In this document: piece by piece, positions 2 through 63,199 of the stretch | Numbering within the stretch: the first letter of the stretch is position 1 | Layout: each line of letters starts with the position of its first letter | Source of the DNA: a virus | Strand: one strand, 5' to 3' | IMG/VR virus record: IMGVR_UViG_3300005340_000040 | Location: 1 to 64,000 of that record | Length of the DNA stretch: 64,000 nucleotides | Program-made: the position numbers and the translations under genes | The notes under the pieces: generated by a model | The model's input: the letters and a program-made list of their open reading frames with translations, nothing else | Databases searched by the model: none | What the model was told of the DNA's origin: nothing

Positions 2-691
2 GGAATGGCTCACGCGGCGGCGCCTCCATGCCCGCCCGGGGCCCTTCTCGTGGAGGGAGACTACTGCACCCAGGTGCGGCAGGAGTGCACGGCCTGGTTG
101 GACATCCCGGGCGGGCGACGGTGCGCCGAGTACCGCGCTCCGACGAGGTGCGTCGGGCACAGCGAGCACGTGCGCTACTGCATCGACCGCTACGAGTACC
201 CGAACGTCGTTGGCGCACGCCCGCGCTCGTGGTTATCGTGGACCGCCGCGGCCAACGCATGCGGGGACGTTGGAAGGCGCTTGTGCAGCAGCCGTGAGTG
301 GTCGTTCGCCTGCGAGGGGCCCGGGATGCACCCGTTCCCGTACGGGGATGGGTACCACCGCGACAGCCACGCGTGCAACATCGACAACCCAATCGACGTC
401 GACGTCTTCGCAGCCAGGAACCCGGGCTCGCCCACGTCCCGCCTGCTCGACGCGCTGCTGGCGCCCTCGGGCTCACGCGATCGCTGCGTGAGCCCGTTCG
501 GCGTTCACGACATGGTCGGCAACATCGACGAGTTCGTCGTCAACGAGACGGGGCAGCCGCACCGCAGCGCCCTGGCGGGTGGGCACGTCTTCGGCGTCCG
601 CAACGCCTGCCGTCCCCTGACGCTCAAGCACGACGAGTCGTTCGCGTGGTATGAGACGGGCGCCCGCTGCTGCAGCGACACGATCGACTAG
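2..691 (+). CDS. FGE/SUMF1-fold (sulfatase-modifying-factor-like) protein, 5'-partial
   Basis: The frame is open to the left edge; the first ATG is at 5, but the residues AHAA just after it look like a signal-peptide cleavage site, so the true start probably lies outside the window. The protein is rich in Cys and shows the conserved blocks of the formylglycine-generating-enzyme fold: CIDRYEYPN near residue 60, LCSSREWSFACEG near 95, CNID near 124 and a GVHDMVGNIDEFV block near 168, ending in GARCC. Family members oxidise a protein Cys or serve as ligand-binding or adhesion domains (C-type-lectin-like). Here a secreted or virion role is more likely than sulfatase activation, because no sulfatase is visible. 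The fold is well supported, the function is not. Confidence 0.72.
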   Translation, partial: GMAHAAAPPCPPGALLVEGDYCTQVRQECTAWLDIPGGRRCAEYRAPTRCVGHSEHVRYCIDRYEYPNVVGARPRSWLSWTAAANACGDVGRRLCSSREWSFACEGPGMHPFPYGDGYHRDSHACNIDNPIDVDVFAARNPGSPTSRLLDALLAPSGSRDRCVSPFGVHDMVGNIDEFVVNETGQPHRSALAGGHVFGVRNACRPLTLKHDESFAWYETGARCCSDTID

Positions 692-6083: not shown

Positions 6084-6084
6084 C

Positions 6085-7742: not shown

Positions 7743-7815
7743 CTCCACGTAGCTCATCGGACAGAGCGCCCGTCTGCGAAGCGGGAGGTAGGGGGTTCGA
7801 GTCCCCCCGTGGAGG
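7743..7815 (+). tRNA. tRNA-Arg (GCG)
   Basis: Acceptor CTCCACG/CGTGGAG, anticodon stem CCCGT/GCGGG around CTGCGAA. G34 is unusual: bacteria normally read CGC/CGU with ACG (inosine). Discriminator G. Confidence 0.92.
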
Positions 7816-7817
7816 CG

Positions 7818-8962: not shown

Positions 8963-9365
8963 GTTCTGGTTCCTCAGCAACTTCTACGCAGCGTCGATCT
9001 GGGTCGACGGTGAGAGGTACGCCACCGTCGAGCACGCCTACCAAGCAGCCAAGACCGACGACCTGGCCTCGCGCCGCCTGATACGCGAGGCAGCGACCCC
9101 CGCGATCGCAAAGCGCCTGGGTCGCTGCTGCGGCCTGGCCCCCGACTGGGACTCGCGGCGGTTGGGCGTGATGCTCGACCTCGTGCGAAAGAAGTTCGAG
9201 AACCCGCTCCTACGGGCCATGCTGCTGGCGACGGAGGATGCGGTGCTGGTCGAGGGCAACACCTGGAACGATACGTTCTGGGGCGTCTGCCGCGGCCGGG
9301 GCGAGAACTGGTTGGGCCGCATCCTGATGCAGGTCCGTGAAGAGTGCCGACAGCAGTCCACGTGA
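8877..9365 (+). CDS. NADAR-domain protein (YbiA/DUF1768)
   Basis: Starts at GTG 8877 behind GAGGAGAT, inside the 3' end of the lysin gene. Diagnostic motifs are visible: FRGEFWFLSNFY (residues 26-37), TVEHAYQAAK (50-59) and the C-terminal GNTWNDTFWGVCRGRGENWLG (124-144). NADAR proteins act on ADP-ribose-linked substrates; some remove ADP-ribose from guanine in nucleic acids. In a phage this could undo host ADP-ribosylation of DNA or RNA or handle NAD breakdown products. Size (162 aa) is normal for the family. Confidence 0.88.
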   Translation: MKSTNESSRPASTQHAASQPPTISSFRGEFWFLSNFYAASIWVDGERYATVEHAYQAAKTDDLASRRLIREAATPAIAKRLGRCCGLAPDWDSRRLGVMLDLVRKKFENPLLRAMLLATEDAVLVEGNTWNDTFWGVCRGRGENWLGRILMQVREECRQQST

Positions 9366-9379
9366 AGAAGTCAAAACAC

Positions 9380-9454
9380 CTCCTCGTAGCTCAGCGGAAT
9401 CAGAGCGCCCGCCTCCTAAGCGGGAAGTCGCCGGTTCGAATCCGGCCGGGGAGA
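9380..9454 (+). tRNA. tRNA-Arg (CCT)
   Basis: Acceptor CTCCTCG/CGGGGAG, anticodon stem CCCGC/GCGGG around CTCCTAA, T-arm GCCGG/CCGGC. First of three Arg tRNAs in a row. Confidence 0.93.
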
Positions 9455-9473
9455 CAGCATCGTCCACGCCCAC

Positions 9474-9546
9474 CTCCTCGTAGCTCAGCGGACAGAGCAC
9501 CAGGCTCCGAACCTGGGGGCCGCGCGTTCAAGTCGCGCCGAGGAGG
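9474..9546 (+). tRNA. tRNA-Arg (CCG)
   Basis: Acceptor CTCCTCG/CGAGGAG, anticodon stem CCAGG/CCTGG around CTCCGAA, T-loop TTCAAGT. Acceptor and D-arm nearly identical to the preceding tRNA, suggesting duplication. Confidence 0.92.
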
Positions 9547-9559
9547 CCTTCCTACGCAT

Positions 9560-9634
9560 GCCCCCGTGGCTCGAGCGGACGTAGGCGTCCGCCTTCTAAG
9601 CGGAAGAAGGCAGGTTCGAATCCTGCCGGGGGCG
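9560..9634 (+). tRNA. tRNA-Arg (TCT)
   Basis: Acceptor GCCCCCG/CGGGGGC, anticodon stem TCCGC/GCGGA around CTTCTAA. The D-stem is imperfect. Confidence 0.9.
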
Positions 9635-9717
9635 CTGCACCGAATTCGCGGTCCCTGGACGGAGTAGTGTGGTCTAGGACGGTCTGATTGGGTCCGAGCG
9701 ACCCGAGGAGAAGCCTC

Positions 9718-9996
9718 ATGACGATGCTCGCGAGGGACAAGAAGGACTGCAGCAGGCGAAAGTCGACGGGCGGCGGCCGACGTCCCGACCTCAGGAACAT
9801 CCGCAGGGAGGAGGCCAGCGCTCGTCAGGCGTCATGGTCGCTCCTCAGCGCTGAAAAGCAGCTTGCCGAGCTCGACCGTCGCTTGGGTAAGGGGATTGGG
9901 GCCGTGAAGCAGCGTGCCCGCCTCGCGGTTCGTGTCGAACGTACGAAGATGGTCACCACGAACCAGCAACCGACGAAGAGCTCCAGATCACGCTAG
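9718..9996 (+). CDS. Small basic protein, 92 aa
   Basis: ATG 9718 follows GAGGAG with a 7-base spacer; an upstream in-frame TTG (9688) has no ribosome site. The chain is strongly basic (LARDKKDCSRRK near the start, SSRSR at the end) with a helical middle (LLSAEKQLAELDRRLG). Nucleic-acid binding is plausible from charge alone; the family is not recognised. Confidence 0.5.
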   Translation: MTMLARDKKDCSRRKSTGGGRRPDLRNIRREEASARQASWSLLSAEKQLAELDRRLGKGIGAVKQRARLAVRVERTKMVTTNQQPTKSSRSR

Positions 9997-10036
9997 GCCC
10001 ACGACCAGCGTTCCTTCGCTTAGCCTTCGCTTCGAC

Positions 10037-10108
10037 GACCGCTTAGCTCAGCGGTAGAGCGCCTGCCCGACGAGCAGGAGGTCGCTGGTTCGAACCCAGC
10101 AGCGGTCA
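10037..10108 (+). tRNA. tRNA-Val (GAC) with C33
   Basis: Acceptor GACCGCT/AGCGGTC, D-arm GCTC/GAGC, anticodon stem CCTGC/GCAGG around CCGACGA: C at 33 (10068) and G at 37. Discriminator A. Confidence 0.87.
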
Positions 10109-10110
10109 CG

Positions 10111-10506
10111 ATGAGCACCGACACGAAGCAGGTCATCGTGGTCAGGCGTGACCTGAACATGCGCAAGGGCAAGCTGGCCGCCCAGGTCGCGCATGCCAGC
10201 GTGAAGTTCCTGGTCGAGAACAACGAGTCAGACCGCGGCGACGCGCTCCTCGTACGATTGACGCCCGATGAGGCATCGTGGCTCCTGGGCGAGGGCGGCA
10301 GCACCAAGATCGTCGTAGGCGTCGACACCGAGGGCGCCCTGCAGGACCTGATCTTCAGGGCGAAGCTCCTGGGCATCGAGGCGTTCCCGATCGTCGACGC
10401 CGGGCGCACGGAGTTCAACGGTGTGCCAACGTTGACGTGCGCTGCCTTCGGCCCCGCCGCGGCGGCGGCGCTCGACGAGCTGACGGGGAACCTGAAGCTC
10501 CTGTGA
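10111..10506 (+). CDS. pth2: Peptidyl-tRNA hydrolase 2 (archaeal/eukaryotic type)
   Basis: The 131-residue product matches Pth2 throughout: KQVIVVRRDLNMRKGKLAAQ (residues 6-25, with the catalytic-site Lys), HASVKF near 29, a KIVVGVDTEG strand near 68, and the C-terminal signature DAGRTEFNG near 97 followed by a GPA...LDELTGNLKLL end. It should release peptides from stalled peptidyl-tRNA so that tRNA can be reused. It begins two bases after tRNA-Val and is in the middle of the array, a fitting place. A second, more divergent Pth2-like gene is at 35243-35602. Confidence 0.92.
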   Translation: MSTDTKQVIVVRRDLNMRKGKLAAQVAHASVKFLVENNESDRGDALLVRLTPDEASWLLGEGGSTKIVVGVDTEGALQDLIFRAKLLGIEAFPIVDAGRTEFNGVPTLTCAAFGPAAAAALDELTGNLKLL

Positions 10507-10526
10507 GCGGACGACTTGCATGATAC

Positions 10527-10611
10527 GGAAGCGTACTCAAGCGGCTGACGAGGCCCGCTTGCTAAGCGGGAGGCCCTACGGGGTCCATGGGTTCGAATCC
10601 CATCGCTTCCT
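10527..10611 (+). tRNA. tRNA-Ser (GCT)
   Basis: Class II. Acceptor GGAAGCG/CGCTTCC, anticodon stem CCCGC/GCGGG around TTGCTAA, T-arm ATGGG/CCCAT. Discriminator T rather than the usual G. Confidence 0.92.
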
Positions 10612-10620
10612 CGAACACGT

Positions 10621-10707
10621 GGAGGGTTGGCTGAGAGGACTAAGGCGGCCGCCTTGAAAGCGGCAGGGGCCCATGGGCTCCCGGGGGTTCGAATCCCTCA
10701 CCCTCCT
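10621..10707 (+). tRNA. tRNA-Ser (TGA)
   Basis: Class II. Acceptor GGAGGGT/ACCCTCC, anticodon stem GCCGC/GCGGC around CTTGAAA, long variable arm. Discriminator T. Confidence 0.92.
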
Positions 10708-10745
10708 CGGGCGGGAAATCCAGGCAATGAGCGGGAGGACGATGC

Positions 10746-10976
10746 ATGCCGACGCGTAAGATCAACGATGCATGGCCGGGCGCAGCTAGCGGAACGCACC
10801 CACCGTGCCACGACCGTGAGCACCGACCGCCCAACATGCAGGTCTTCGAACCTGGAACGTACGAGCACGAGTGCCCCTCCTGCCGGCAACGAACCGTGTT
10901 CACCGTGAACGGTTTCACACATGGAAGCGTGGCTGAGAGGCCCAAGGCGCCCACCTCGAAAGTGGGATGGCGGTGA
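10746..10976 (+). CDS. Small CxxC protein whose 3' end runs into tRNA-Ser
   Basis: ATG 10746 follows GGGAGGA. Residues 15-56 resemble a short phage zinc-ribbon-like family: THPPCHDREHRPPNMQ, then a Gly-x-Tyr-Glu-His block, CPSC and RTVFTVNG. The frame then continues through the tRNA-Ser(CGA) gene and stops inside it (10974-10976), adding about 18 residues that are just tRNA sequence read as protein. The original stop seems to have been lost. Function unknown. Confidence 0.55.
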   Translation: MPTRKINDAWPGAASGTHPPCHDREHRPPNMQVFEPGTYEHECPSCRQRTVFTVNGFTHGSVAERPKAPTSKVGWR

Positions 10977-11012
10977 TGAACCGCCACGTGGGTTCGAATC
11001 CCACCGCTTCCT
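10923..11012 (+). tRNA. tRNA-Ser (CGA)
   Basis: Class II. Acceptor GGAAGCG/CGCTTCC (identical to Ser(GCT)), anticodon stem CCCAC/GTGGG around CTCGAAA. Its first 54 bases overlap the preceding protein frame. Confidence 0.92.
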
Positions 11013-11013
11013 C

Positions 11014-11102
11014 GGAGGAATGGCTGAGAGGTTGAAGGCACCACGTTGGAATCGTGGCGGGCCCCCGCTGGGGCCCCACGGGTTCGAATCCCGTTTCCTC
11101 CT
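11014..11102 (+). tRNA. tRNA-Ser (GGA)
   Basis: Class II. Acceptor GGAGGAA/TTCCTCC, anticodon stem CCACG/CGTGG around TTGGAAT, variable arm GGGCCCC-CGCT-GGGGCCC. One base after Ser(CGA). Confidence 0.92.
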
Positions 11103-11119
11103 CCGACGAGACAGACGAC

Positions 11120-11191
11120 GCAGGCATAGCACAACAGGTAGTGCGCCACCTTGCCATGGTGATGATGCGGGTTCGAGCCCCGCTGCCCGCT
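11120..11191 (+). tRNA. tRNA-Gly (GCC)
   Basis: Acceptor GCAGGCA/TGCCCGC with one A-C mismatch, D-arm GCAC/GTGC, anticodon loop TTGCCAT, T-arm GCGGG/CCCGC. Confidence 0.88.
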
Positions 11192-11223
11192 CCCTCCTGC
11201 TCCAGTACGCGGAGCGAAGGATC

Positions 11224-11296
11224 GCGGACGTGGTGTTCAAGGGCAGCATGGCTGGCTTCCAACCAGCAGGTACCGGTTCGACCCCGGTCGTCCGCT
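11224..11296 (+). tRNA. tRNA-Gly (TCC)
   Basis: Acceptor GCGGACG/CGTCCGC, anticodon stem GCTGG/CCAGC around CTTCCAA, T-arm ACCGG/CCGGT. Confidence 0.93.
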
Positions 11297-11306
11297 CGAG
11301 GTTCAG

Positions 11307-11624
11307 ATGGGTTCTGAGAAGAAGAGGGTGCGTGCAGCGTTTCGCAATGCGGTGTTTTCCCGCGACAGCAACCGGTGCCGAGCGTGCGCTAGCCCGAGCG
11401 TCGCGCTCGATGCGCACCACATCACCGACAGGAACCTGATGCCCAACGGCGGCTACGTTGCGGAGAACGGCATCTCGCTGTGTCAAACGTGCCACGAGAA
11501 GGCTGAGGTCTACCACTCCACGGGAACAGCGCTGCTGGGCTGGTCGCCGGACGACCTGTACAGGTTGATCGGATCAACGTACGATCTGGCGGTCGCCGCG
11601 GCCAAGCGCAGCGGCGGGTGCTAG
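11307..11624 (+). CDS. HNH endonuclease
   Basis: A 105-residue HNH domain: a CRACASPS metal-site half near residues 26-33, LDAHHIT near 37 (catalytic His), ENGISLCQTCHEKAE near 52-66 with the N and final CxxCH of the motif. The gene is compact with little outside the nuclease domain, as in free-standing homing endonucleases found among phage tRNA genes. It may mobilise part of the array; a packaging nuclease is the other usual role but is less likely away from a terminase. Confidence 0.85.
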   Translation: MGSEKKRVRAAFRNAVFSRDSNRCRACASPSVALDAHHITDRNLMPNGGYVAENGISLCQTCHEKAEVYHSTGTALLGWSPDDLYRLIGSTYDLAVAAAKRSGGC

Positions 11625-11631
11625 GCCGACG

Positions 11632-11802
11632 ATGAGCAGGAACGTGAAGCACGTGCGCCGGAAGGTAACGCAGGAGCAGGTCGACGCGATGAACCGCATG
11701 CTGCAGCTCAGCAGCGCGCCCTTCCGGTACGCGGTTGGGAACGATGGCCGGTTGACCGAGGTACCGCACCACCATCATGAGCTGCACGGTTGCTGCAGCT
11801 GA
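11632..11802 (+). CDS. Small protein with His-rich and Cys-Cys tail, 56 aa
   Basis: ATG 11632 lies eight bases after the HNH stop. The chain begins MSRNVKHVRRKVTQEQVDAM and ends in EVPHHHHELHGCCS, a possible metal-binding tail. No family recognised. Likely co-transcribed with the HNH gene. Confidence 0.45.
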   Translation: MSRNVKHVRRKVTQEQVDAMNRMLQLSSAPFRYAVGNDGRLTEVPHHHHELHGCCS

Positions 11803-11844
11803 ACCATCGAATCGATCTACGTAAGGAAACGCAGGCAAGGCCTC

Positions 11845-11930
11845 GCCGACGTGCATGGAACACGGTAGACAGCGCAAGCTCAAACCTTGCGGCTCCCAGG
11901 AGCATGTGGGTTCGAACCCCACCGTCGGCA
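11845..11930 (+). tRNA. tRNA-Leu (CAA)
   Basis: Class II. Acceptor GCCGACG/CGTCGGC, anticodon stem GCAAG/CTTGC around CTCAAAC, variable arm GGCTCC-CAG-GAGC, discriminator A. Confidence 0.92.
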
Positions 11931-11932
11931 CG

Positions 11933-12274
11933 ATGAACGACAACGACCAGCAGCCACGAAGGCTCGTGGTCCACTGCAAGCGTGAACCGTTCGACGTCTA
12001 CATCGGGCGCGGGCGTTCGTCGCAGTGGGGCAACCCGTTCTCCGACAACCCGCAGAGCCTAGCGAAGGTCGTCGTCGGCGATCGCAATGAAGCGATCGCC
12101 CGCTACGAAGAGTGGCTGCTGCAGCAGCCGGAGCTGGTCGCACGTGCCAGGAAGGAGCTGCGTGGCAAGGTGCTGGGGTGCTGGTGTTCCCCGCGGGCCT
12201 GCCACGGCGACGTCCTGGCCAGGATCGCGAACGAGGATGGGCCCAGCCCGGTCGAGCGCCCCGAGGAACCGTGA
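11933..12274 (+). CDS. DUF4326-family protein
   Basis: ATG 11933 starts three bases after tRNA-Leu(CAA). The family signature is visible: VHCKREPFDVYIGRGRSSQWGNPF (in two parts, about residues 13-36), then RYEEWL near 56 and LRGKVLGCWCSPRACHGDVL near 76-95 with conserved Cys and His. DUF4326 proteins are common in phages; their activity is not established, although the Cys/His pattern suggests metal or nucleotide binding. The stop overlaps the next start (GTGA). Confidence 0.8.
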   Translation: MNDNDQQPRRLVVHCKREPFDVYIGRGRSSQWGNPFSDNPQSLAKVVVGDRNEAIARYEEWLLQQPELVARARKELRGKVLGCWCSPRACHGDVLARIANEDGPSPVERPEEP

Positions 12275-12888
12275 AATCGTACCCATCGATCCCGTACGCG
12301 GTGACGTCGCGCCTGCCCATCATCGCCTTCGACAAGCTCGACGGCAGCAACGTACGCGCGGAGTGGTCGTCCAAGCGCGGTTGGTACAAGTTCGGCACCC
12401 GCCACAGGCTCATCGTCGACGGGGAGCCCATCTTTGGGCCGGTCCCCCAGCTCATCAACGAGAAGTACGGTGAGCCGCTCGCCCGTGCGATCCACGGGGC
12501 TGGGTTCGACCGCGCGGTGTGCTTCTTTGAGCTGTGGGGCCCAGGATCGTTCGCGGGCTCGCACGATCCGAACGAATCGTTGACGATCACGTTGCTCGAC
12601 GTCGCTCCCTACAACCAGGGGATCCTAGAGCCCGAACGTTTCCTCAGGGTGTGCGGTGGGTTGGACCACGCACGCATCCCGCACTGGGGGCCCTGCACCC
12701 CGGAGTTCATCGAGCAGGTTCGCGCTAGCGAGCTGCCGGAGATGACGTTCGAGGGCGTGGTATGCAAGGCTGCGGCCGAGAACCGCGCAAAGATGCCGAC
12801 GATGTTCAAGCAGAAGTCACGTGCATGGCTCGAGAAGCTACACGAACACTGCCACGGCGACCAGGCCATGTACAGCAGGCTGATATGA
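12271..12888 (+). CDS. RNA ligase family protein (second ligase)
   Basis: GTG 12271 overlaps the DUF4326 stop, so translation is probably coupled. Nucleotidyltransferase motifs: I FDKLDGSN (near residues 19-26, nucleophilic Lys), III CFFELWG near 85, IV MTFEGVVCK near 159 and V MFKQKSRAWL near 177. At 205 residues it is a minimal ligase core without large accessory domains, closest in outline to Rnl2-like enzymes. It should join 3'-OH and 5'-phosphate RNA ends; the substrate is inferred to be tRNA from context. Confidence 0.8.
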   Translation: MKSYPSIPYAVTSRLPIIAFDKLDGSNVRAEWSSKRGWYKFGTRHRLIVDGEPIFGPVPQLINEKYGEPLARAIHGAGFDRAVCFFELWGPGSFAGSHDPNESLTITLLDVAPYNQGILEPERFLRVCGGLDHARIPHWGPCTPEFIEQVRASELPEMTFEGVVCKAAAENRAKMPTMFKQKSRAWLEKLHEHCHGDQAMYSRLI

Positions 12889-12904
12889 CGACGACCCTTC
12901 GCAA

Positions 12905-12980
12905 CGACCGTGGCACTCCCGGTTGGGGTCGGCCGTCTTATAAGCGGCTGCGACAGGGGGCTCGACACCCCCGCGGTCGA
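12905..12980 (+). tRNA. tRNA-like element, possibly tRNA-Ile (TAT)
   Basis: Acceptor CGACCGT/GCGGTCG, anticodon stem GCCGT/GCGGC around CTTATAA (anticodon TAT, codon ATA), T-stem GGGGG/CCCCC. Odd points: T-loop CTCGACA has C54 in place of T, a 7-base variable loop and a D-stem with one mismatch. It ends two bases before the next ATG, as other array tRNAs do. It could be a decayed or unusual tRNA. Confidence 0.5.
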
Positions 12981-12982
12981 CG

Positions 12983-34700: not shown

Positions 34701-34757
34701 GTGCTGTAATCAGTGCCTCGTGCTGCGCACCTTGGGCGCATCGCCCGATGGTGGCTG

Positions 34758-34830
34758 AGTCCCCGACAGGATTCGAACCTGCAACGCATCCGGTTGAAAT
34801 CGGACCGCTCCGCCGTTGAGCTACGAGGAC
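34758..34830 (-). tRNA. tRNA with 8-nt anticodon loop (Glu TTC or TCA)
   Basis: On the minus strand: acceptor GTCCTCG/CGGGGAC, D-arm GCTC/GAGC, anticodon stem GTCCG/CGGAT, a 5-base variable loop, T-arm GCAGG/CCTGT with TTCGAAT, discriminator T. The anticodon loop is ATTTCAAC, eight bases. Counted from the 5' side the anticodon is TTC (Glu); from the 3' side TCA (UGA reader). It stands alone, far from the main array. Confidence 0.8.
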
Positions 34831-51828: not shown

Positions 51829-52242
51829 ATGCGACAGAAACAATCCCGGGTCGGTCGAACGCAGCAGGGCTCGGTTGACGCACAGTCACAAGCTCTCGAG
51901 TTGCAGGAGCAGCTCCTTCTGCGGCTGAACCAAAAGCTGGAATCGCCTGCGTTGAACGGTGGGTTCGACGACCTTGCGAAGAAGGTCGACCGCATCGAGA
52001 ACACGACGGACCAGCTCAAGGAGACGCAAGCCGCCTACAGCAAGAAGATCGACGCCATTCACACCGCGATCTACGATCCGGAGACGGGCCTGTACACGAA
52101 GGTGAAGTCGCACGGTTCGTGGATCAACTCCACGAACCAGGGCCTCAGGTGGTTCGCGGGCCTGGCCATCGCCGGGACGTTGACCGGGATCGGAAAGTTG
52201 CTGTACGACTTCATCACGGGGCACATTCTCTACCATCCGTGA
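51829..52242 (+). CDS. Coiled-coil protein with C-terminal membrane anchor, 137 aa
   Basis: ATG 51829 is chosen; GAGGA sits directly against it, so an earlier TTG (51778) cannot be excluded. A Gln/Leu-rich coiled coil (about 19-85) is followed by YDPETGLYTKVKSHGSWINS and one membrane segment, WFAGLAIAGTLTGIGKLLY. The layout resembles XhlA-like hemolysin/holin-associated proteins. It precedes the chaperonin-like gene by 16 bases. Confidence 0.6.
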   Translation: MRQKQSRVGRTQQGSVDAQSQALELQEQLLLRLNQKLESPALNGGFDDLAKKVDRIENTTDQLKETQAAYSKKIDAIHTAIYDPETGLYTKVKSHGSWINSTNQGLRWFAGLAIAGTLTGIGKLLYDFITGHILYHP

Positions 52243-52243
52243 G

Positions 52244-52249
52244 TACCAT
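52244..52249 (+). promoter_or_regulatory. TACCAT element, duplicated, before the chaperonin-like gene
   Basis: TACCAT at 52231-52236 and again at 52244-52249 (both followed by CC). ATG 52259 lies nine bases after the second. TGCATGGAT (52252-52260) and ATCCATGCA (52268-52276) form a perfect 9-bp stem over the start codon. No Shine-Dalgarno fits. Confidence 0.45.
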
Positions 52250-52258: not shown

Positions 52259-53455
52259 ATGAAGCAGATCCATGCAGCGTCGGACGTTGAGGAATCGCTG
52301 GCTCGCATCCGACGTCGGTTGAACAGCGTCGTGGCGACCCACGTCAAGGTGGCCCTGAGCGGTCGGCCGCCGGCCCGGCGGTCCTGCACGCAGGCCTTGT
52401 TCGAGCTGCGCTTCTCTCACCCCATTGACTCGCAGTGCTACGAGATCGTGCTTCACCACGGCGGTGCCGCGGAACGATTAGCCCCCGGGGGATTCGTTCG
52501 GTTCGTCCAGCTGTTCCTCGAGGAGGCGCCAGAAGCTGGCGAACGGATCTTCGTCGAGGGACGCCATGCCGACCTAGCGGCGGTGAACCGGCTGCTCCTG
52601 GAGCATGCTGCCCCCGGTGGCGAGCTCGCCGTGGCCTTGGTAACGACCGCCGTGGAGATGGCCGGCCGCGCCGGGAAGGTCGTCGTGGAGAGGACAACGT
52701 CGCGTCAGGCCTCAGTCGAGATGACGCGAGGCTACAGCTTCCAGCTCGCCAGCCCCATGGGACGGGATGTCGAGATGAGCTGTCCCAGGATCGTGTGCAT
52801 CGACGGCTACGTGGAGACCGTCGGGGAAGTTCACCACCTGCTCGAGGAGGCTAGCGCCTCGCGTGAACCGTGCATCATCTTCGCTCGTGGCTTTGCCGAC
52901 GATGTCCTGCAAACGCTACGCGTCAATTACGACCGCGGTACGTTGGTCGTGGTGCCGGTCGTGGTCCCGTACGACCTGGCCGACATGAACACGCTCGTCG
53001 ACGTCGCTACCGTCGCTGGCGGCGACGTCGTTTCCAGCCTGAAGGGCGATCTCATCAGCTCCGTCAGCCTGGAGCGCTTGCCTCGGGTGCAGCATGCTGC
53101 GATCCTGCGCAACACCGTCGTCCTGAGGAACGGTGCAACGTACGCTCGGGTCAGGCTGCACGAGCAGCAGCTTCGCGCCAAGCGTGAGCTCGAAGAGCAG
53201 GAAGAGGTGGCCAAGATGCTGGACGCGAGGCTCCGTTCGTTGGCGTCCAACCACGTCGTGGTGCGCATTCCCACGGGCCATGATCGCTCAAGGGTCATGC
53301 AGGGCGTCGACTCAGCGCTTCGAGCGGTCAGGTGCGCCGTCGACCATGGCATCACCCAGGACGGCCGGCTTGCTGCCGTCGAGGCGGCCGCGCGGTTGCA
53401 CGTCGCGCGCTGTCATCGCACGTTGAGCGACCTGGGGGCGGTCATCACCCGCTGA
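52259..53455 (+). CDS. Divergent GroEL-like chaperonin, 398 aa
   Basis: The product follows GroEL from end to end but is reduced. Residues 22-45 match the first equatorial helix (VVATHVKVALSGRP); 120-145 match the intermediate domain (ALVTTAVEMAGRAGKVVVE); 157-300 are an apical domain (MTRGYSFQLASP, CIIFARGFADDVLQTLRVN, DVATVAGGDVVSS); 325-370 match the return to the equatorial domain (MLDARLRSL ... VDSALRAVRCAVDHGI). The ATP-site DGTTT is not found and the last ~130 residues of GroEL are missing. It may be a non-ATPase adaptor or a mixed-ring subunit. The stop overlaps the convergent gene by 11 bases. Confidence 0.8.
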   Translation: MKQIHAASDVEESLARIRRRLNSVVATHVKVALSGRPPARRSCTQALFELRFSHPIDSQCYEIVLHHGGAAERLAPGGFVRFVQLFLEEAPEAGERIFVEGRHADLAAVNRLLLEHAAPGGELAVALVTTAVEMAGRAGKVVVERTTSRQASVEMTRGYSFQLASPMGRDVEMSCPRIVCIDGYVETVGEVHHLLEEASASREPCIIFARGFADDVLQTLRVNYDRGTLVVVPVVVPYDLADMNTLVDVATVAGGDVVSSLKGDLISSVSLERLPRVQHAAILRNTVVLRNGATYARVRLHEQQLRAKRELEEQEEVAKMLDARLRSLASNHVVVRIPTGHDRSRVMQGVDSALRAVRCAVDHGITQDGRLAAVEAAARLHVARCHRTLSDLGAVITR

Positions 53456-54881: not shown

Positions 54882-55352
54882 TTGCCGACCGGCATCAAGC
54901 ACCTGATCACGTGCCGCTGCGTTATGCCGCAGTATCGGCGCGCTCCCGATCCCCCTGCGCATCAGTTTGTCGTGTTCTCCATCGTCGATGACGACGGCAC
55001 CACCCGCCCGCGCATCGTGCAGTGCAACAACTGCGGCGTGGTCCACAAGGTCGTCGACGTCTGCCGCTCCGAGATCGTCAACGGTCGCGACGCGATGGCA
55101 TCGAGCACCTCGATCGATGAGGTGAAGCTGGGCATGCCGCCGCCGCTCGTCGCGCTGCTGGAGTCGAACGACGTGGACCTCTCGACGTGGGAGATGGTCA
55201 GGTTCGTGCTCGAGCAACGCCAGTGGGGCACGTTCGTCGTGCTCTCGACCGAGGAGGTCGGCGGCCTGAGGCAGGGTAAGTACCTTCACATCCTGGGAGA
55301 GGGCATGTACAAGGTTGAGACGTTTGCTCGTGAGGAGGTTGTCGGACGATGA
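54882..55352 (+). CDS. Phage protein with CxxC motif, 156 aa
   Basis: TTG 54882 behind AGGGTAGG. The product has an N-terminal ITCRCVMPQYRR, a beta hairpin with CNNCGVVHKVVDVC near 46-59 and a C-terminal half with LESNDVDLSTWEMVRFVLEQ. The Cys pattern suggests a small zinc-binding domain. Its stop overlaps the next start (ATGA). I think the family is widespread in large phages, but its function is unknown to me. Confidence 0.6.
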   Translation: MPTGIKHLITCRCVMPQYRRAPDPPAHQFVVFSIVDDDGTTRPRIVQCNNCGVVHKVVDVCRSEIVNGRDAMASSTSIDEVKLGMPPPLVALLESNDVDLSTWEMVRFVLEQRQWGTFVVLSTEEVGGLRQGKYLHILGEGMYKVETFAREEVVGR

Positions 55353-55629: not shown

Positions 55630-55655
55630 GGTGTGCCGCGTTTACGCGGCACACC
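55630..55655 (+). promoter_or_regulatory. 11-bp hairpin at the expected mRNA 5' end
   Basis: GGTGTGCCGCG (55630-55640) pairs perfectly with CGCGGCACACC (55645-55655) around the loop TTTA. It stands between the TACCAT element and the Shine-Dalgarno GAAGGGG. It could protect the mRNA 5' end or regulate the helicase. Confidence 0.6.
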
Positions 55656-55668
55656 TGAAGGGGTACGT

Positions 55669-57312
55669 ATGGTCACGGTGGACGATTGGAGGCACTGCTT
55701 TCCGTTCCCGACGCTTCGTCCGGAGCAGGAACAGGCCATCAACTTCGCGCTCGAGTCGTTCCTGAGCGGTGGGAAACGTTTCGTCATCGCCGAGCTTGGC
55801 ACCGGCGTCGGGAAGTCAGCGATCGCGGTGACCGTGGCCCGCTACCTGGCCACCCAGGCCCCCGGAGGCGACGCCTACGTGTTGACGACCCAGAAGATCC
55901 TGCAGGAGCAGTACATGGACGACTTCGGTCCATCGTCTGGGCTCAACGCGATGCGCTCCCTACGGTCGTCGTCGAACTACAGCTGCCGGTACTACGCCGA
56001 CCAGACGTGCGCTGAGTCACGGCGCCTGCTCCAGCAGCTCGGCAAGCGCTTGGTCGACTCCGAGTTCCACAGTTGCTGTCGCTCCGCTTGCCCGTACGTC
56101 CTCGACAAGCAGGAGTTCATGGACTTCCCCGTTGGCATCACCAACTTCTCGTACTTCCTGGCCGAGACCATGTACGCGAAGCAGCTGCAGCCGCGGTCGT
56201 TGCTGGTGATCGACGAGTGCCACAACGTCGAGGCAGAGCTGAGCAAGTTCGTCGAGGTGACGTTCTCAGAGCGCTTCGCCGAGACGGCCCTGAGCATCAA
56301 AGCGCCGCGCACCCGAACCGACGCAACGATCGTCGGATGGATCCGCGGGCCCTACCGCGCGGCCGTCGAGAAGCAGAAGGTTCGCCTGGGTAAGCGTTTG
56401 GGCAGCGCCAACGTGGATCGTGAGGCGAACGCTGAGCTGCAGCAGCTCAGCAAGCAGTACGAGATGCTCGACAAGCACCTGTGCAAGGTCGATCGCTTCA
56501 TCGGTGACTACGATTCGTCGCCGACCAACTGGGTGATGAACACCATCGAACCACCGCCCGGTGGGAAGGTAGGCCGAAAGTACGAGTTCAAGCCCGTCGA
56601 CGTCGCCCCCCATGCGCACGGCAGCCTCTACGACTTCGGTGAGCGAGTGCTGCTCATGTCCGCGACCGTCATCGACAAGGACACGTACTGCCGCTCCGTC
56701 GGCATCGACCCGGACGCGACGGCCTTCATTCACATCGCAACGCCCTTCCCCGTCAGCAACAGGCCCATCCACTACCTCGGCGCTGGCAGCATGGCCAGGA
56801 ACAGCATCGACTCAACGTTGCCCCACGTCGTCGCTATCGTCAAGCAGCTGCTCGAGCTCCACGCAAACGACAAGGGGATCGTCCACTGCGTGAACTACAG
56901 GATCGCCCAGCACCTGTTCGACGCGCTGAGGAACGATCGGCTGCTGCTGCACGGTAGCGGCAACCGGGAGGACACGATCAAGGAGCACCTGGCGGCCCAA
57001 CGACCCACCGTCCTCCTGAGCCCCTCGATGACCGAGGGCGTTGACCTAGCCGACACCGCCAGCAGGTTCCAGGTCCTGTGCAAGGTTCCGTTCCCGTACC
57101 TGGGCGACCGCGTAATCCAACTTCGAAAGGAGCGCAACGGGGGATGGTACGCGTGCCAGACGGCCCGCTCCGTCATCCAGGCGCTGGGTCGCTCCATCAG
57201 GAACGCTGACGATTACGCGACGTCGTACATACTCGACTCCGACTGGGAGCGCTTCTACAGGATGAACTCGACCATGTTCCCGCCCGAATTCAAGGCAGCG
57301 TTGCAGCAGTAG
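55669..57312 (+). CDS. DinG/XPD-like Fe-S DNA helicase
   Basis: An SF2 helicase: Walker A ELGTGVGKSAIAV near 41-53, motif Ia YVLTTQKILQEQYM near 72, Cys residues for a 4Fe-4S cluster (C104, C112, C131-C136 region), DECH box LVIDECHN near 178, and C-terminal motifs TEGVDLADTASRFQ near 453 and QALGRSIRNADDY near 501. The family unwinds 5'-tailed duplexes, D-loops or R-loops. ATG 55669 follows GAAGGGG; an in-frame GTG (55633) lies inside the leader hairpin. Likely used in replication or repair. Confidence 0.88.
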   Translation: MVTVDDWRHCFPFPTLRPEQEQAINFALESFLSGGKRFVIAELGTGVGKSAIAVTVARYLATQAPGGDAYVLTTQKILQEQYMDDFGPSSGLNAMRSLRSSSNYSCRYYADQTCAESRRLLQQLGKRLVDSEFHSCCRSACPYVLDKQEFMDFPVGITNFSYFLAETMYAKQLQPRSLLVIDECHNVEAELSKFVEVTFSERFAETALSIKAPRTRTDATIVGWIRGPYRAAVEKQKVRLGKRLGSANVDREANAELQQLSKQYEMLDKHLCKVDRFIGDYDSSPTNWVMNTIEPPPGGKVGRKYEFKPVDVAPHAHGSLYDFGERVLLMSATVIDKDTYCRSVGIDPDATAFIHIATPFPVSNRPIHYLGAGSMARNSIDSTLPHVVAIVKQLLELHANDKGIVHCVNYRIAQHLFDALRNDRLLLHGSGNREDTIKEHLAAQRPTVLLSPSMTEGVDLADTASRFQVLCKVPFPYLGDRVIQLRKERNGGWYACQTARSVIQALGRSIRNADDYATSYILDSDWERFYRMNSTMFPPEFKAALQQ

Positions 57313-57349
57313 ACAGCGCTCACAGGTAGCGCAAACCTTTTTACGATGG

Positions 57350-57376
57350 TCGTGGATGGGGTACCTCTTTCCACGA
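57350..57376 (+). promoter_or_regulatory. Leader hairpin before the 57388 gene
   Basis: TCGTGGA (57350-57356) and TCCACGA (57370-57376) pair perfectly; TACGAT (57342-57347) precedes the stem and TACCTC (57362-57367) lies in the loop. Consistent with the promoter-hairpin pattern. Confidence 0.35.
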
Positions 57377-57387
57377 GGTCAGAGAAC

Positions 57388-57648
57388 ATGGAAGACAACG
57401 TCGTCATCACCAAGTGGACAGAGCTGAAGGCGATCGTCGATGCGTACGAGCTCGACATCGTCAAGAACGCGAAGGGCGTCGCGGCTGCAGGTGTCAGGGC
57501 CCGCGCGGGGCTCAGGGCGCTGAAGCAGAAGGCGAGCGAGCTGGTCAAGGTCACCGTCGATCTCGACAAGGACCTGCGTGCCAAGCGAACCGCTGCGAAG
57601 GCCGCGGCCAAGGCTGCGAAGGCGGCACCAGCAGCGTCGAAGCCCTGA
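57388..57648 (+). CDS. Small basic protein with Lys/Ala-rich tail, 86 aa
   Basis: ATG 57388 follows GAGGTC; an upstream in-frame ATG (57346) lies in the TACGAT element. Residues 1-60 form charged helices (TKWTELKAIVDAYELDIVKN, LRALKQKASELVKVTVDLDK) and the end is a run of Lys and Ala (AKRTAAKAAAKAAKAAPAAS), as in histone H1-like or nucleoid proteins. DNA binding is inferred from the tail only. Confidence 0.6.
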   Translation: MEDNVVITKWTELKAIVDAYELDIVKNAKGVAAAGVRARAGLRALKQKASELVKVTVDLDKDLRAKRTAAKAAAKAAKAAPAASKP

Positions 57649-58349: not shown

Positions 58350-58368
58350 CTAGCGTCCACCAGTTGAG

Positions 58369-58374
58369 TATACT
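58369..58374 (+). promoter_or_regulatory. TATACT -10-like element before phoH
   Basis: TATACT sits 77 bases before ATG 58451; TACCAC follows and runs into CACGAT-CTGTTC-ATCGTG, a 6-bp hairpin. No good -35 box is seen. Confidence 0.3.
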
Positions 58375-58450
58375 CCTACCACGATCTGTTCATCGTGTAC
58401 AAGATGCACGTGTTCACGACCGTCACGTTGCGCGGGTCGAGGGAGTGCTG

Positions 58451-59866
58451 ATGAACAAGAAGACATACGTGCTCGACACGAACGTTCTGCTCAGCGATCC
58501 GAGCTCGATCAACGCGTTCCATGAGCACGACGTCATCGTTCCGATGGTGGTCCTGGAGGAGCTCGACAGGCACAAGGGGCGCCTCGACGAGGTGGGGCAG
58601 AACGCCAGGCAGGTGAGCCGTGCGCTGGACGGCATGCGGGGTTCAGGGAGGCTCAGCGATGGCGTTGACCTGCCGGGAGGCGCAAGCCTTCGGATCGTCT
58701 CCATCGGTTCTGACGCTCTGGCGATGCTGCCGAGCGAGCTGCAGACCAGCAAGGTCGACAACCTGATCATCGCCTTCATGCTGTGGGCAACCTCCCAGGA
58801 GGGGTGCATCAGCAACCCCGTGCTGGTGTCGAAGGACATCAACGTGCGCATCAAGTGCGATAGCCTGGGCATCGCGTGCGAGGACTACCTCAGGATGCGC
58901 GCGGCACCGGACGCGCGCAGCTCCTACCGCGGCGTCGCGGTCATCGACGTTGACGAGGCGTTGGTCGACGAGTTCTACCGCTCGGGCAGCGTCTGCCTGC
59001 CCGATGCCGCGCTGCTCGAGCACGAGCTACACCCGAACCAGATCGTCGTCCTCAAGCACGCTCCTGTAGCCTCGGGCACGTCGTCGGCGCTGACCAAGTG
59101 CATCAAGCCCGGAGCGCCGCTGGTCCCTATCACCCGCATCGACCACGTCTTCGGGCTCGAGCCGCGCAACAAGGAGCAGCGGTTCTCCCTCGACCTGCTG
59201 TTCGACGAACAGATCAAGCTGCTCACGCTCGTGGGTCCGAGCGGCACCGGCAAGACCCTGCTGGCGCTGGCCGCTGCCCTTGAGCAGCTGCGTGGGTTGG
59301 GCGATCCGCAGCGCGCTCGCTACGACAAGCTCATCGTCACGCGCCCCGTCCAGCCCGTCGGCAAGGACATCGGTTTCCTCCCAGGCAGCCTTGAGGAGAA
59401 GATGGAACCGTGGGTGGTGCCCGTGCGCGACAACTTGAACTTCCTGGTGGAGTCGAGACAACGTCGTGCCGACGGCAGGCGGACGCGCGAGCAGCGCCGC
59501 CGAGGTCAAACCGCAGGTCCCAGCGATGATTCGTACCTCCAGCTGATGCAGGAGCGGGGCCTCATCGAGATCGAGGCCATCACCTTCATCCGGGGGCGCT
59601 CCATCCCGAACGCCTTCATCATCATCGACGAAGCGCAGAACCTCTCGATGCACGAGCTGAAGACGATCGTCACCCGTGCGGGCGAAGGCACGAAGATCGT
59701 GCTGACCGGCGACGTGGAGCAGATCGACAACGTGCACGTCGACGTGTACACGAACGGGCTGTCGTTCGCGGTGGAGCGGTTCAAGGACCAGCAGATCGCT
59801 GGGCACGTCACCCTCATCAAGGGCGAGCGCAGCGAGCTTGCCACCCTAGCGTCCAGGATCCTGTGA
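58451..59866 (+). CDS. phoH: PIN-PhoH fusion (PhoH2-type RNA helicase/nuclease)
   Basis: ATG 58451 behind GGGAG. Residues 1-155 are a PIN nuclease domain (TYVLDTNVLLSDPSSINAF with the first Asp; VVLEELDRHKG; NPVLVSKDINVRIKC). Residues 240-471 are a PhoH P-loop ATPase: Walker A LVGPSGTGKTLLAL near 264-277, Walker B FIIIDEAQNLS near 394, then VLTGDVEQID near 417. The 471-residue size is normal. PhoH2 proteins unwind and cut RNA. In phages PhoH is common, but the PIN fusion adds an RNA-cutting activity. Confidence 0.92.
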   Translation: MNKKTYVLDTNVLLSDPSSINAFHEHDVIVPMVVLEELDRHKGRLDEVGQNARQVSRALDGMRGSGRLSDGVDLPGGASLRIVSIGSDALAMLPSELQTSKVDNLIIAFMLWATSQEGCISNPVLVSKDINVRIKCDSLGIACEDYLRMRAAPDARSSYRGVAVIDVDEALVDEFYRSGSVCLPDAALLEHELHPNQIVVLKHAPVASGTSSALTKCIKPGAPLVPITRIDHVFGLEPRNKEQRFSLDLLFDEQIKLLTLVGPSGTGKTLLALAAALEQLRGLGDPQRARYDKLIVTRPVQPVGKDIGFLPGSLEEKMEPWVVPVRDNLNFLVESRQRRADGRRTREQRRRGQTAGPSDDSYLQLMQERGLIEIEAITFIRGRSIPNAFIIIDEAQNLSMHELKTIVTRAGEGTKIVLTGDVEQIDNVHVDVYTNGLSFAVERFKDQQIAGHVTLIKGERSELATLASRIL

Positions 59867-59929: not shown

Positions 59930-62900
59930 ATGCCGACGCCGACACAGCTCCCGATCAAGTACTGCAAGGCGCTGCCGGCATCGAGCTCCACGACCACGCC
60001 GGCGCAGGCGGCACGGTTCATGGACAAGGCCCTCTACGAGTTCTGGGGCTTCTGCGTCAACGGTGGGCAGTCGCTCACCGTCCCGGGCGGCTTCGCCGCA
60101 ACCAACGGCGTGTCGTTCCCGTCCGGCTTCCAGTCGGGCAGCTCGACGCTGCTTGCGACGGGCTCGGACGGCAGCACCACGTTTGGCACCGACGTCTTCA
60201 GGTCCACGACCGTCGACTTCGTGAACGGCTTCAGCGGATCCTTGATCGGGAAGTACCTCGTCACCTGGACCCCCGGTGGCTCGTCGACCGACGACAGCGT
60301 CTACCTCATCAAGTCGGTCGAGGACCGGTCGCACATCCGCGTCGACGTCAACTCCGGTGGCACCCGGCGCCGCGGGAACCATGCGTACTTCACGGATCGT
60401 TCGAGCATCATGTTCAGGATCGTGGACATCCTGCAGGCCGCACGCCTCGCAGGTTGGCAGGATGGCCATCACCTGATTATGCAGTTCGCCGGCGCGCCGC
60501 TCGTCAACCCCGGGCAGCTGGCACCTCAGGTGCGGTTCGTGCACCACACCCAATCGTCCGGCCCCAACACGGGGCAGGAAGGCGACTTCGGGGTCATCGT
60601 TTCGCCCTCTGGATCGTGGAACGGATCCGTGTTCAGCGATGCTACTGCTGAGCAGATGGGGACCTGGTTCAACGCTCCCGTCACCGGATTGAGCAACGGG
60701 CTCTCCGCGTACACCTTCATCGGCGCGAAGGATTTCATCATCGTCGAGGCCGAGAGCAGGTTGGGCATCTCGGGGTCGACTCAAGGCGCGTCTACCCTGG
60801 GCGCAGGCCTCCACGTTGAGGTGCCGCAGAGGCTGTACCCAGCCGCAACAGATCCGAACCCTGTCGCTTGGATGGCGTGGTCGGCGTCGTTGCCCAGCCA
60901 GGTCGCTTCGACGTACTACAACGGCTTCAACATGGTGGGGTTCGACGGTGCCGTGAGGCAGTGGACGACCCTCGTTCGCTCCCCGATGGGTACGCAGGTA
61001 CGCAGTGATTACACGGGCGCAGCCTACGGTACCGGCCAATGGCAACAGTTCGGCGTCCCGTCGTTCCGGTTCGCGTTCATGGGCTACAACGATTACGATG
61101 ACGCGAGGGTCACGTCGGACGGCCTGCTCAGCCTGGCGTTGGGTGGGCAGTTCAGCCTAGCACGAGCGCGCCTACGCCGAGCACGTTTCACCACCAACGA
61201 CCTGGTGCGCGGGTCACGCTTGGGCGACCCGCTGAACGACACCAACTCATGGTCGGTGGTGTCGAACGGTGTGCTGTGGCCATGGGACAACTCGATCCTG
61301 CCGTTCGGTGCATGGCAGGCGCTGTCAGCGGGCGCCCTGAGCAGTTCGGCGCTGCCAGCCGTCCCGATCGCCTCGCTCGACTTCAGCGCCCTGCCCATGG
61401 GCGCCTTCACCGGGTCGCTCCCAGGCGGTTCGACGTACGCTTGCCTGTCGGGCACCCAACGTGGCACCATCGGCACCGACGTCTCCGGCAACGTGGTCGT
61501 CACGGCTGCTGCGATCGCTCCCAACGTTCCCCTCATCGGCGACGGCGGCCTGGGCCTGGGCCGCGGGCTCGTCATCGAGCCCTCGGCGACGTTCAAGCCG
61601 ATCACCCCGGCGACCGGCATGGTCTGGTTCGACGCAAACGGTTCCCACATCACCTCGTCGGCGGGCCAGGTGGCCCCCGACGGCACCACCACCGCCGTGC
61701 GGTGGGACTGGGGCGTCCCGGCCCCGACGTACACCTCAGGTCTCTCCGACTTCACCACTGGAATCGTCCCCGCAACCGGATCGATAAACATCTCGCTCTT
61801 CGTCAAGCACCTCAACACGACGAAGATCAACATGTACAACCCGTACAACGTCAACACGCTTCCCGTGCAGGACCTTGCACCCCAGGTTTGGACGCGCTTC
61901 GATATGACTTCGAGCGCGGTGGGCGGCAACTCTGGGCACGGAATCGGCGGCGACACAGGCGTGTCGCCGCCCCCGCTGCTGAACGCATGGTCGGGTCACC
62001 TCATCCAGGGGGTGTCGTACCCTCTCGAGCCGACGGGTGCGACGACGATTGCGTTGACGACCTCACGTCTCCTGACGACGCCCCTCGCCACAGGAGCGAC
62101 CAACCTTCGCACCGGCCCGCAGAACATCAACGTTCGCCTGGTGATGAAGGGCGGATCCACCGAACAATCGGGGCCCGTCTACCTCATCTCATGGGACGCC
62201 ACGACGTACGTCGTGTTCGACAACGTAACCAAGCTGCTGACGGTGTCGTCCGGCGGGTCGACGGTTACGTTCGTCGCGCGTGGGGTCTACTTCAACCGCG
62301 ACGACATCGAGTTCTGGATCAGGTTCGGCGCCGGCGGTCCCACGCGGGCTGGCTACCACGTCATCGGTGGCCCAAAGGTCGACCTTGGCTCCGGAGCGGT
62401 GCTGCCGGACGTGGCAGCGTCGAACGCCAAGCTGTGCAGGGCCAACGATGACGGGGGAGTGTTGGGTTGCTGGCTCAAGCGGATCGACGTCTACGCCCAA
62501 TCTGACATCCCGCCCTGGATGCTGGGGGCGACCGTCCTGGGCTCGTTCGCTCCTGCCAAGGAGCAGTGGAACCAGCTGGCGGTGCACGGCAACTCGCGCG
62601 TCTCCGCGCAGCCCGAAACGTTCGCTACGATCCAGCAGCAGCTTCCTGGGCACCTGTCCAACTGGACGATGATCAACGTTGGTCACTCGAACGCTGTTAC
62701 GTCCGGAGGTGCGGCTGGGACGAACCTGCAGACGTTCGCCCTGAGCGAGATCGATCCTCTCATCAACCACAACGCGTTCCTGCGCGCGCTCCTCTACTTC
62801 GAGGCCGTCAATGGCATCCTGATCCTCGGCACCACCGCGGCCCAGGAGTGGGCCAAGATCCAGAGCTACTATAGCGATCGAGCCGCTGCGGGCTGGAACG

Positions 62901-63199
62901 CGTTCATCTTCGTGACGCTGCCCATGGAGGATCCTGCTCGACAGCCCGGTTTCGCTGCTGCGAACCCGACCCTGCAGGCGTACAACGCGCTTGTCAGGGC
63001 CCAATACGCATCGTTTGCCGCGTCGTTGGGCGTGACGAGGACCGCGCTCATCGACGTTGAGCTCGATTCATTCATCGACATGACCGACCCGGCGAAGAGC
63101 TACGACGGCACGCACTGGACGGCGTTGACGTACTCGCACCTCCAGCAGGTCGACAACGCGCCCATCAACGGCCTGTGGACCCCGGCGCTCGTGAGCTGA
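59930..63199 (+). CDS. Giant virion/adsorption protein with C-terminal SGNH hydrolase, 1089 aa
   Basis: The first ~850 residues are Gly/Ser/Thr-rich beta structure of tail-fibre type. From about residue 865 an SGNH/GDSL esterase pattern appears: NQLAVHGNSRVSAQP (Ser of block I in HGNSR), MINVGHSNAVTSGG (block III-like Asn), LILGTTAAQEW, and the late SYDGTHWTALTYSH with the Asp-x-x-His pair of block V. Such domains remove acetyl groups from surface glycans during adsorption. ATG 59930 follows AAGG. The hairpin CCCACG/CGTGGG at 59874-59896 lies in the gap upstream. Confidence 0.75.
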   Translation: MPTPTQLPIKYCKALPASSSTTTPAQAARFMDKALYEFWGFCVNGGQSLTVPGGFAATNGVSFPSGFQSGSSTLLATGSDGSTTFGTDVFRSTTVDFVNGFSGSLIGKYLVTWTPGGSSTDDSVYLIKSVEDRSHIRVDVNSGGTRRRGNHAYFTDRSSIMFRIVDILQAARLAGWQDGHHLIMQFAGAPLVNPGQLAPQVRFVHHTQSSGPNTGQEGDFGVIVSPSGSWNGSVFSDATAEQMGTWFNAPVTGLSNGLSAYTFIGAKDFIIVEAESRLGISGSTQGASTLGAGLHVEVPQRLYPAATDPNPVAWMAWSASLPSQVASTYYNGFNMVGFDGAVRQWTTLVRSPMGTQVRSDYTGAAYGTGQWQQFGVPSFRFAFMGYNDYDDARVTSDGLLSLALGGQFSLARARLRRARFTTNDLVRGSRLGDPLNDTNSWSVVSNGVLWPWDNSILPFGAWQALSAGALSSSALPAVPIASLDFSALPMGAFTGSLPGGSTYACLSGTQRGTIGTDVSGNVVVTAAAIAPNVPLIGDGGLGLGRGLVIEPSATFKPITPATGMVWFDANGSHITSSAGQVAPDGTTTAVRWDWGVPAPTYTSGLSDFTTGIVPATGSINISLFVKHLNTTKINMYNPYNVNTLPVQDLAPQVWTRFDMTSSAVGGNSGHGIGGDTGVSPPPLLNAWSGHLIQGVSYPLEPTGATTIALTTSRLLTTPLATGATNLRTGPQNINVRLVMKGGSTEQSGPVYLISWDATTYVVFDNVTKLLTVSSGGSTVTFVARGVYFNRDDIEFWIRFGAGGPTRAGYHVIGGPKVDLGSGAVLPDVAASNAKLCRANDDGGVLGCWLKRIDVYAQSDIPPWMLGATVLGSFAPAKEQWNQLAVHGNSRVSAQPETFATIQQQLPGHLSNWTMINVGHSNAVTSGGAAGTNLQTFALSEIDPLINHNAFLRALLYFEAVNGILILGTTAAQEWAKIQSYYSDRAAAGWNAFIFVTLPMEDPARQPGFAAANPTLQAYNALVRAQYASFAASLGVTRTALIDVELDSFIDMTDPAKSYDGTHWTALTYSHLQQVDNAPINGLWTPALVS

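Follow-up and report, generated by a model that had tools for sequence, protein, structure and literature searches.

A shrunken GroEL-like protein without ATP motifs in uncultured jumbo phages and its possible partnership with phage GroEL

What can a chaperonin-like protein still do once the residues for ATP use have gone? This question is raised by a gene in the viral contig record IMGVR_UViG_3300005340_000040 of IMG/VR (67,862 bases), of which positions 1 to 64,000 were analyzed and are called the window throughout. The gene encodes a protein of 398 amino acids, called the short protein here. Its relatives fall into two lineages, a core lineage and a second one in which the gene usually follows prkA. 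The short protein is a homologue of GroEL, its predicted fold suggests a complete but reduced chaperonin subunit, and in large viral contigs its gene is found together with a gene for full-length GroEL. Our tentative answer, for and against which the case is closely balanced, is that this ATP-dead chaperonin paralogue assists the full-length GroEL encoded elsewhere by the same phage, as an adaptor or cofactor that needs no ATP.

Homology to GroEL and loss of the ATP features

A phmmer search against PDB sequences aligned residues 121-385 of the short protein with residues 154-430 of GroEL, the top rows ranging from E 4e-18 (ancestral Cpn60) to E 6e-17 (GroEL). PHROG 5725, 'chaperonin groEL', matched residues 125-381 (E 1.5e-17), and hhalign against six full-length GroELs of phage contigs gave 99.6% (E 1.2e-23). 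The Pfam family Cpn60_TCP1 (PF00118) produced no row at E<=1 for the protein and no match at E<=10 in the window's record, and a Cpn10 row was absent from the Pfam scan of the protein. The top PDB matches, by sequence as well as by fold, were group I chaperonins. Together with a check of the open reading frame (ORF), these searches bear out a preliminary description of the locus, which had reported a GroEL-like ORF of 398 residues without the DGTTT motif.

The position of the catalytic aspartate of GroEL, D398, is occupied by Ser352 in the phmmer alignment (GroEL VEDALHATRAAVEEG, window protein VDSALRAVRCAVDHG). This and the other GroEL residue numbers were matched to the rows of that alignment. 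At column 352, an aspartate is found in none of the 35 aligned family members. The motifs DGTTT, GGG, and ED[AS]L occur in 0 of 35 short members compared to 6 of 6 full-length phage GroELs, and DGTTT is likewise found in 0 of the 57 short ORFs of the prkA scan described below. The DGTTT site is taken by a glutamate that all 35 members share (E72) and, after it, by residues resembling PGG (P76 in 26 and G77 in 28 of the 35). Judged by its sequence, the short protein is a chaperonin homologue and not a functional Cpn60, the ATP features tested being absent.

Predicted fold

An AlphaFold2 model of the window protein, built with 12 sequences, had a predicted local distance difference test score (pLDDT) of 84.6 and a predicted template modeling score (pTM) of 0.58. 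Its residues 1-398 align with residues 3-523 of GroEL (1mnf), with 394 of 398 residues covered, a Z of 25.5, and a root-mean-square deviation (rmsd) of 6.6. Whole-chain TM-scores from Foldseek were lower (0.44-0.65 by query length), as expected for a chain of three mobile domains. The apical domain, on which the preliminary description had staked its case in advance, superposes on 5cdj_B at 1.9 Å across 173 residues. A second model, built with 29 sequences for a prkA-lineage protein that shares 17% identity with the window protein (pLDDT 85.6, pTM 0.70), matches 8g7l with a Z of 25.1 across 390 residues (rmsd 3.8) and carries a beta hairpin at the stem-loop position. Both models are predicted monomers, not solved structures.

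The window model retains the N-terminal strand and helices, the apical domain, the intermediate helices, and, at the C-terminus, a single helix and a strand; reductions affect the nucleotide pocket and most of the equatorial helices on the C-terminal side. By our count from the alignments, the largest gap, of about 75-80 residues, falls between the second intermediate segment and the last helix; the N-terminal equatorial/intermediate part lacks about 30-35 residues and an apical loop about 8. The preliminary description had placed a loss of some 130 residues at the C-terminus. A simple C-terminal truncation can be ruled out, because the last helix and strand remain in the model, which aligns through the last GroEL strand. 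Its picture of an apical-domain platform that binds without ATP holds in one half: an ATP-free binding role is likely, but the bare platform gives way to what is, in the model, a complete shrunken chaperonin subunit with a small equatorial domain.

Family, selection, and descent

A scan of viral contigs with the single sequence found one full-length GroEL and nothing else, and relatives were then reached through neighboring genes. With the helicase and a 1089-residue protein as queries, 23 records were obtained, of which a protein search matched 13; in two of these 13, a full-length GroEL was matched as well, and in one (G001), the full-length protein was the sole match. A profile scan of viral contigs gave 35 loci. 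One of them, L079, surfaced as a family match but is the full-length GroEL of G051, a viral contig (L079, L082) in which full-length GroEL and GroES genes adjoin. Counting the window's own, these loci yielded 36 distinct short ORFs in total, alongside 7 full-length GroELs. The family alignment holds 35 short ORFs of 375-465 residues, after removal of L076, which is cut by a contig end. Family members are 16-44% identical to the window protein. A scan with PrkA returned 145 viral contig stretches with PrkA relatives, and 80 loci were kept. After two full-length GroELs (L135 and L143) had been dropped from 59 matches, short ORFs, with 52 distinct sequences among them, remained in 57 of the 80 loci, in nearly every case immediately downstream of prkA. 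This set shares several contigs with the 35-member alignment, and the counts overlap.

Of 12 pairs compared, the three closest gave ratios of nonsynonymous to synonymous substitution rates (dN/dS, NG86 method) of 0.162, 0.119, and 0.098, that is, 0.10-0.16; the remaining nine had a saturated dS. The gene is under purifying selection. It is intact in relatives, and the disruption that the preliminary description had allowed for was not found; the ratios and the intact relatives together rule out a pseudogene. In a tree of 50 short and 13 full-length sequences, the two groups split on one branch (Shimodaira–Hasegawa-like approximate likelihood ratio test, SH-aLRT, 100). The tree was a quick search with several long branches, which did not include EL, OBP, and AR9. 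As far as that tree goes, the short branch represents one old paralogue rather than repeated truncations.

A scan of GTDB genomes for bacterial relatives gave 67 pattern matches, none of which encodes one. In isolated phages, tblastn with three family members (E<=1) gave partial matches alone: five records for P0001, all unannotated, nine for L077, and one for L010. Annotated matches lie in GroEL genes or in one of two tail fibre genes. Absence from isolated phages is unproven, as these queries were weak. No description of a two-chaperonin phage or of an ATP-dead phage chaperonin was recognized in the open-licence PMC literature. Surveys of marine and soil viral chaperonins exist (PMC8390657), and some members of the short family may lie unrecognized among their sequences.

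Co-occurrence with full-length phage GroEL

Contigs, which may be incomplete, were searched for both PF00118 and the short family. The Fisher test was confined to those of at least 200 kb, since a gene missing from a fragment may simply lie outside it. Among contigs of at least 250 kb, both genes are found in eight (G005, G009, G018, G035, G052, G053, G055, and G056), the short gene alone in none, full-length GroEL alone in none, and neither gene in seven (G017, G054, Tunturi_5, XacN1, RAS14, LR756504, and phage G; Fisher 1.6e-4). The last five are named phage controls hand-picked from the list of helicase matches. A threshold of at least 200 kb adds G057 and G058 with both genes, G043 with the short gene alone, G059 with full-length GroEL alone, and G022 with neither, for counts of 10, 1, 1, and 8 (Fisher 9e-4). 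The two genes also diverge together across 10 genomes (r 0.85, Mantel p 2e-4).

Pseudomonas phage EL and an Immutovirus stand outside the test because they were chosen for having GroEL. A profile search of their whole genomes in pieces found no short family member in either; a border between pieces splits the EL GroEL, and the weak matches there fall on this split protein, except for an unrelated one (E 0.16). No Cpn10 match above its cut-off was found beside the short gene in the records searched: such a match was present in 1 of 42 records (G051, whose sole chaperonin match is a full-length GroEL) and in 0 of 8. These results redirect the preliminary description, which had named host GroEL rings as one of two possible targets: the nearest candidate partner is the full-length GroEL of the phages themselves and not that of the host alone.

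Apical surface

The hydrophobic groove with which GroEL binds substrates and GroES is lined by L234, L237, L259, V263, and V264. In the phmmer alignment, H192, L195, R221, and N223 of the window protein correspond to L234, L237, V263, and N265 of GroEL. A histidine is found at position 192 in 31 of the 35 members and a lysine or arginine at position 221 in 25; in the core lineage, both are present in 24 of 24. Residues invariant in 35 of 35 include E72, E190, L195, N223, D248, G263, and R324. The stretch between F161 and D182 measures 20-27 residues in the short family compared to about 28, by our own count, in full-length proteins. By alignment, the core lineage has swapped part of the hydrophobic groove for conserved polar residues, which would point to a particular partner rather than to general unfolded chains.

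Proposed role and alternatives

The short protein is probably no folding machine in its own right and more likely a helper or adaptor. In the proposed partnership, the short subunit would dock beside or on the ATP-hydrolyzing rings of phage GroEL via its retained edges, that is, the N- and C-terminal strands and the stem-loop. Its apical face, marked by His and Lys, would recruit or hold one particular phage protein or cap the ring in the place of GroES. The arrangement would resemble that in which the paralogues BBS6 and BBS12 link a client to the chaperonin CCT. The Bardet–Biedl syndrome (BBS) proteins MKKS/BBS6, BBS10, and BBS12 are also diverged chaperonin paralogues; BBS6 and BBS12 are described as having an altered ATP hydrolysis motif, and BBS proteins as intermediates between client and canonical chaperonin (PMC5534436). 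These proteins differ in being eukaryotic, of group II, and enlarged by insertions rather than shrunken, and the likeness would be one of role alone. A more specific proposal is a two-component chaperonin in a large group of uncultured jumbo phages, made of an ATP-driven GroEL ring and an ATP-dead shrunken subunit standing in for GroES, either as a lid or as an adaptor for clients. We consider it rather unlikely as it stands; if true, prokaryotes would have, among group I chaperonins, their own version of the BBS/CCT arrangement.

Several observations weigh against an adaptor of phage GroEL. First, the interaction between the two proteins is one that we infer. Second, 39 contigs below 200 kb, the window's record included, carry the short gene without a PF00118 match, and so does G043, a 200-kb contig that lacks GroEL. 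Third, full-length GroEL is found without the short gene in G059, in phage EL, and in the Immutovirus, which has GroES; phage GroEL therefore has no general need of the short protein. Fourth, common descent links the 20 contigs, so that the Fisher value overstates their independence, and a Mantel correlation would arise even from nothing more than vertical inheritance in parallel. The short gene also evolves much faster than the full-length GroEL gene. The two genes are never adjacent, lying 145-186 kb apart on linear contigs and 60-176 kb apart if these are circular, a wide spacing that fits their absence from each other's short fragments. Finally, H192 is found in 7 of 11 and K221 in 1 of 11 members of the prkA lineage, and with the pattern this weak, a client surface common to the whole family is not established.

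The main alternative, in which we place less confidence, is a scaffold or holdase that acts alone and without ATP. The short protein, in this case a monomer or small oligomer, would bind one phage protein, perhaps encoded by a neighboring gene, with its apical face, and the co-occurrence with GroEL would reflect shared ancestry. None of the conserved neighbors is GroEL: the core lineage has the coiled-coil protein with its hydrophobic helix, the other lineage has prkA, and the two share the 156-residue protein, the 83-residue protein, and PhoH. The equatorial domain, which builds the ring, appears mostly lost in the models, and chaperonin-like BBS proteins are described as not forming CCT-like oligomers (PMC5534436). 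Shared ancestry sits less easily with full-length GroEL in 8 of 8 contigs of at least 250 kb that have the short gene and in 0 of 7 that lack it, and a solitary protein sits less easily with the terminal strands and the stem-loop hairpin that the models keep.

A modifier of host GroEL, which would enter or bind the host rings and shift their substrate choice or block them, is improbable. Phages are known to retarget host GroEL, as T4 gp31 and RB49 CocO show, and a predicted chaperonin fold with retained edges would suit such a task. However, host GroEL is less necessary to phages that carry their own, the deep divergence of the family (16-44% identity) gives no sign of constraint to one host surface, and searches for Cpn10 beside the short gene gave nothing above the cut-off. 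T4 gp31 and GroES resemble the short protein by analogy, in the proposed role of a GroEL helper; they differ in fold, which is that of Cpn10, and no Cpn10 above the cut-off was found in records with the short gene.

Less probable still is a component of the virion or its assembly, with the chaperonin fold taken over for a structural purpose. A tail gene of the baseplate wedge family is present in the window's record, and the large protein encoded downstream has three tandem relatives in other contigs, but the nearby genes of known family encode a helicase, PhoH, PrkA, and a glycosyltransferase and not head or tail proteins. A decaying, functionless GroEL remnant, to which the loss of all nucleotide motifs and the fast evolution might point, can practically be dismissed in view of the intact ORFs of similar length in dozens of divergent contigs, the low dN/dS, and the eight columns that are invariant across 35 members.

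Comparison with other chaperonins

Compared to GroEL and other group I Cpn60 proteins, the short protein is homologous along the intermediate and apical domains and, in the model, has the same chain topology from the first to the last strand. It is shorter (398 versus about 548 residues), it lacks DGTTT, D398, and GGG, and its apical groove is partly replaced. The family shows which chaperonin parts can go while selection keeps the rest.

The chaperonins of phages EL, OBP, and AR9 are likewise borne by jumbo phages and reportedly need no GroES (PMC7185714, PMC9598537), those of AR9 and OBP being reported to work without a co-chaperonin (PMC9598537). They are full-length and ATP-dependent, in contrast to the short proteins of 375-465 residues, which lack the ATP motif and, in the tree above, form a branch separate from the full-length sequences sampled there. 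The authors of the EL structure state that an unrelated cofactor of the GroES-independent EL chaperonin cannot be ruled out (PMC7185714). A conserved ATP-dead paralogue that tracks a GroES-less phage GroEL would be a specific protein to consider for that part in a different group of phages.

Gene neighborhood and other features

Table 1. Features of the window, with positions counted from its first base
Feature	Position	Strand	Basis or remarks
Gene of ATPase-dead short chaperonin-like protein	52259..53455	+	ATG start, open ORF, 398 aa; GroEL homology, AlphaFold model, intact homologues
Residues 1-120, reduced N-terminal equatorial/intermediate part	52259..52618	+	E-x3-PGG in DGTTT place; model, alignment
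Residues ~150-332, apical domain	52706..53254	+	Family signatures VSEIHHLLE and DVxHTLKVN; 5cdj_B match at 158..330, 1.9 Å
Residues 333-398, second intermediate segment, one C-terminal equatorial helix, C-terminal strand	53255..53452	+	Model
Coiled-coil protein with C-terminal hydrophobic helix, 154 aa	51778..52242	+	Upstream neighbor, kept beside short gene in core lineage
TGAGTACNAT element	52240-52249		Directly 5' of short gene; 1 found versus 0.08 expected in window
156-aa protein with Cys pairs	54882..55352	+	Downstream of short gene in both lineages
DNA helicase	55633..57312	+	Conserved in neighborhood
PIN-PhoH protein	58364..59866	+	Conserved downstream in both lineages
1089-aa protein	59930-63199		No family match
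DUF2201 putative metallopeptidase with VWA-like domain	2882-4363		
tRNA cluster	5177-12981	+	30 genes, many anticodons
Extra tRNA call	34757-34830		Doubtful; four-base anticodon

The features are collected in Table 1. The gene order in the core lineage is a glycosyltransferase on the minus strand, the coiled-coil protein with the hydrophobic helix, the short gene, an opposite-strand gene, small genes, the helicase, PhoH, and the 1089-residue protein or its homologues. The short gene of the second lineage is preceded by prkA and followed by the genes for the 156-residue protein and PhoH; an 83-residue protein is a further conserved neighbor in both lineages. Of 41 records, 14 were found to encode PrkA, and these all belong to the second lineage. 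In most PrkA-bearing relatives, prkA is directly 5' of the short gene; in G055 and G058, the short gene is located away from it. Relatives encode a full PrkA serine kinase with AAA_PrkA and PrkA C-terminal domains (E down to 1e-144), for example, at L070:5595-7547 and L011:16237-18204.

The start ATG of the short gene lies 16 bases past the stop of the upstream gene, whose product shares the motifs 'LNGGFD' and 'IYDP[ED]xGL' across the core lineage. The TGAGTACNAT element stands at the same place in several core relatives, and a clear Shine–Dalgarno sequence was not seen at this site before the short gene. The element may be a leader or coupling element, as it begins at the upstream stop codon in the window.

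Downstream of the short gene, the 156-residue protein had no match in isolated phages at E<=0.1. As relatives of the 1089-residue protein, L020 and L022-L025 carry three tandem homologous ORFs of about 430-580 residues. In the conserved block after the short gene, L070:9912-10121, a relative of window positions 57346-57648, encodes a small basic protein that resembles the histone H1-like Hc1 (3e-9).
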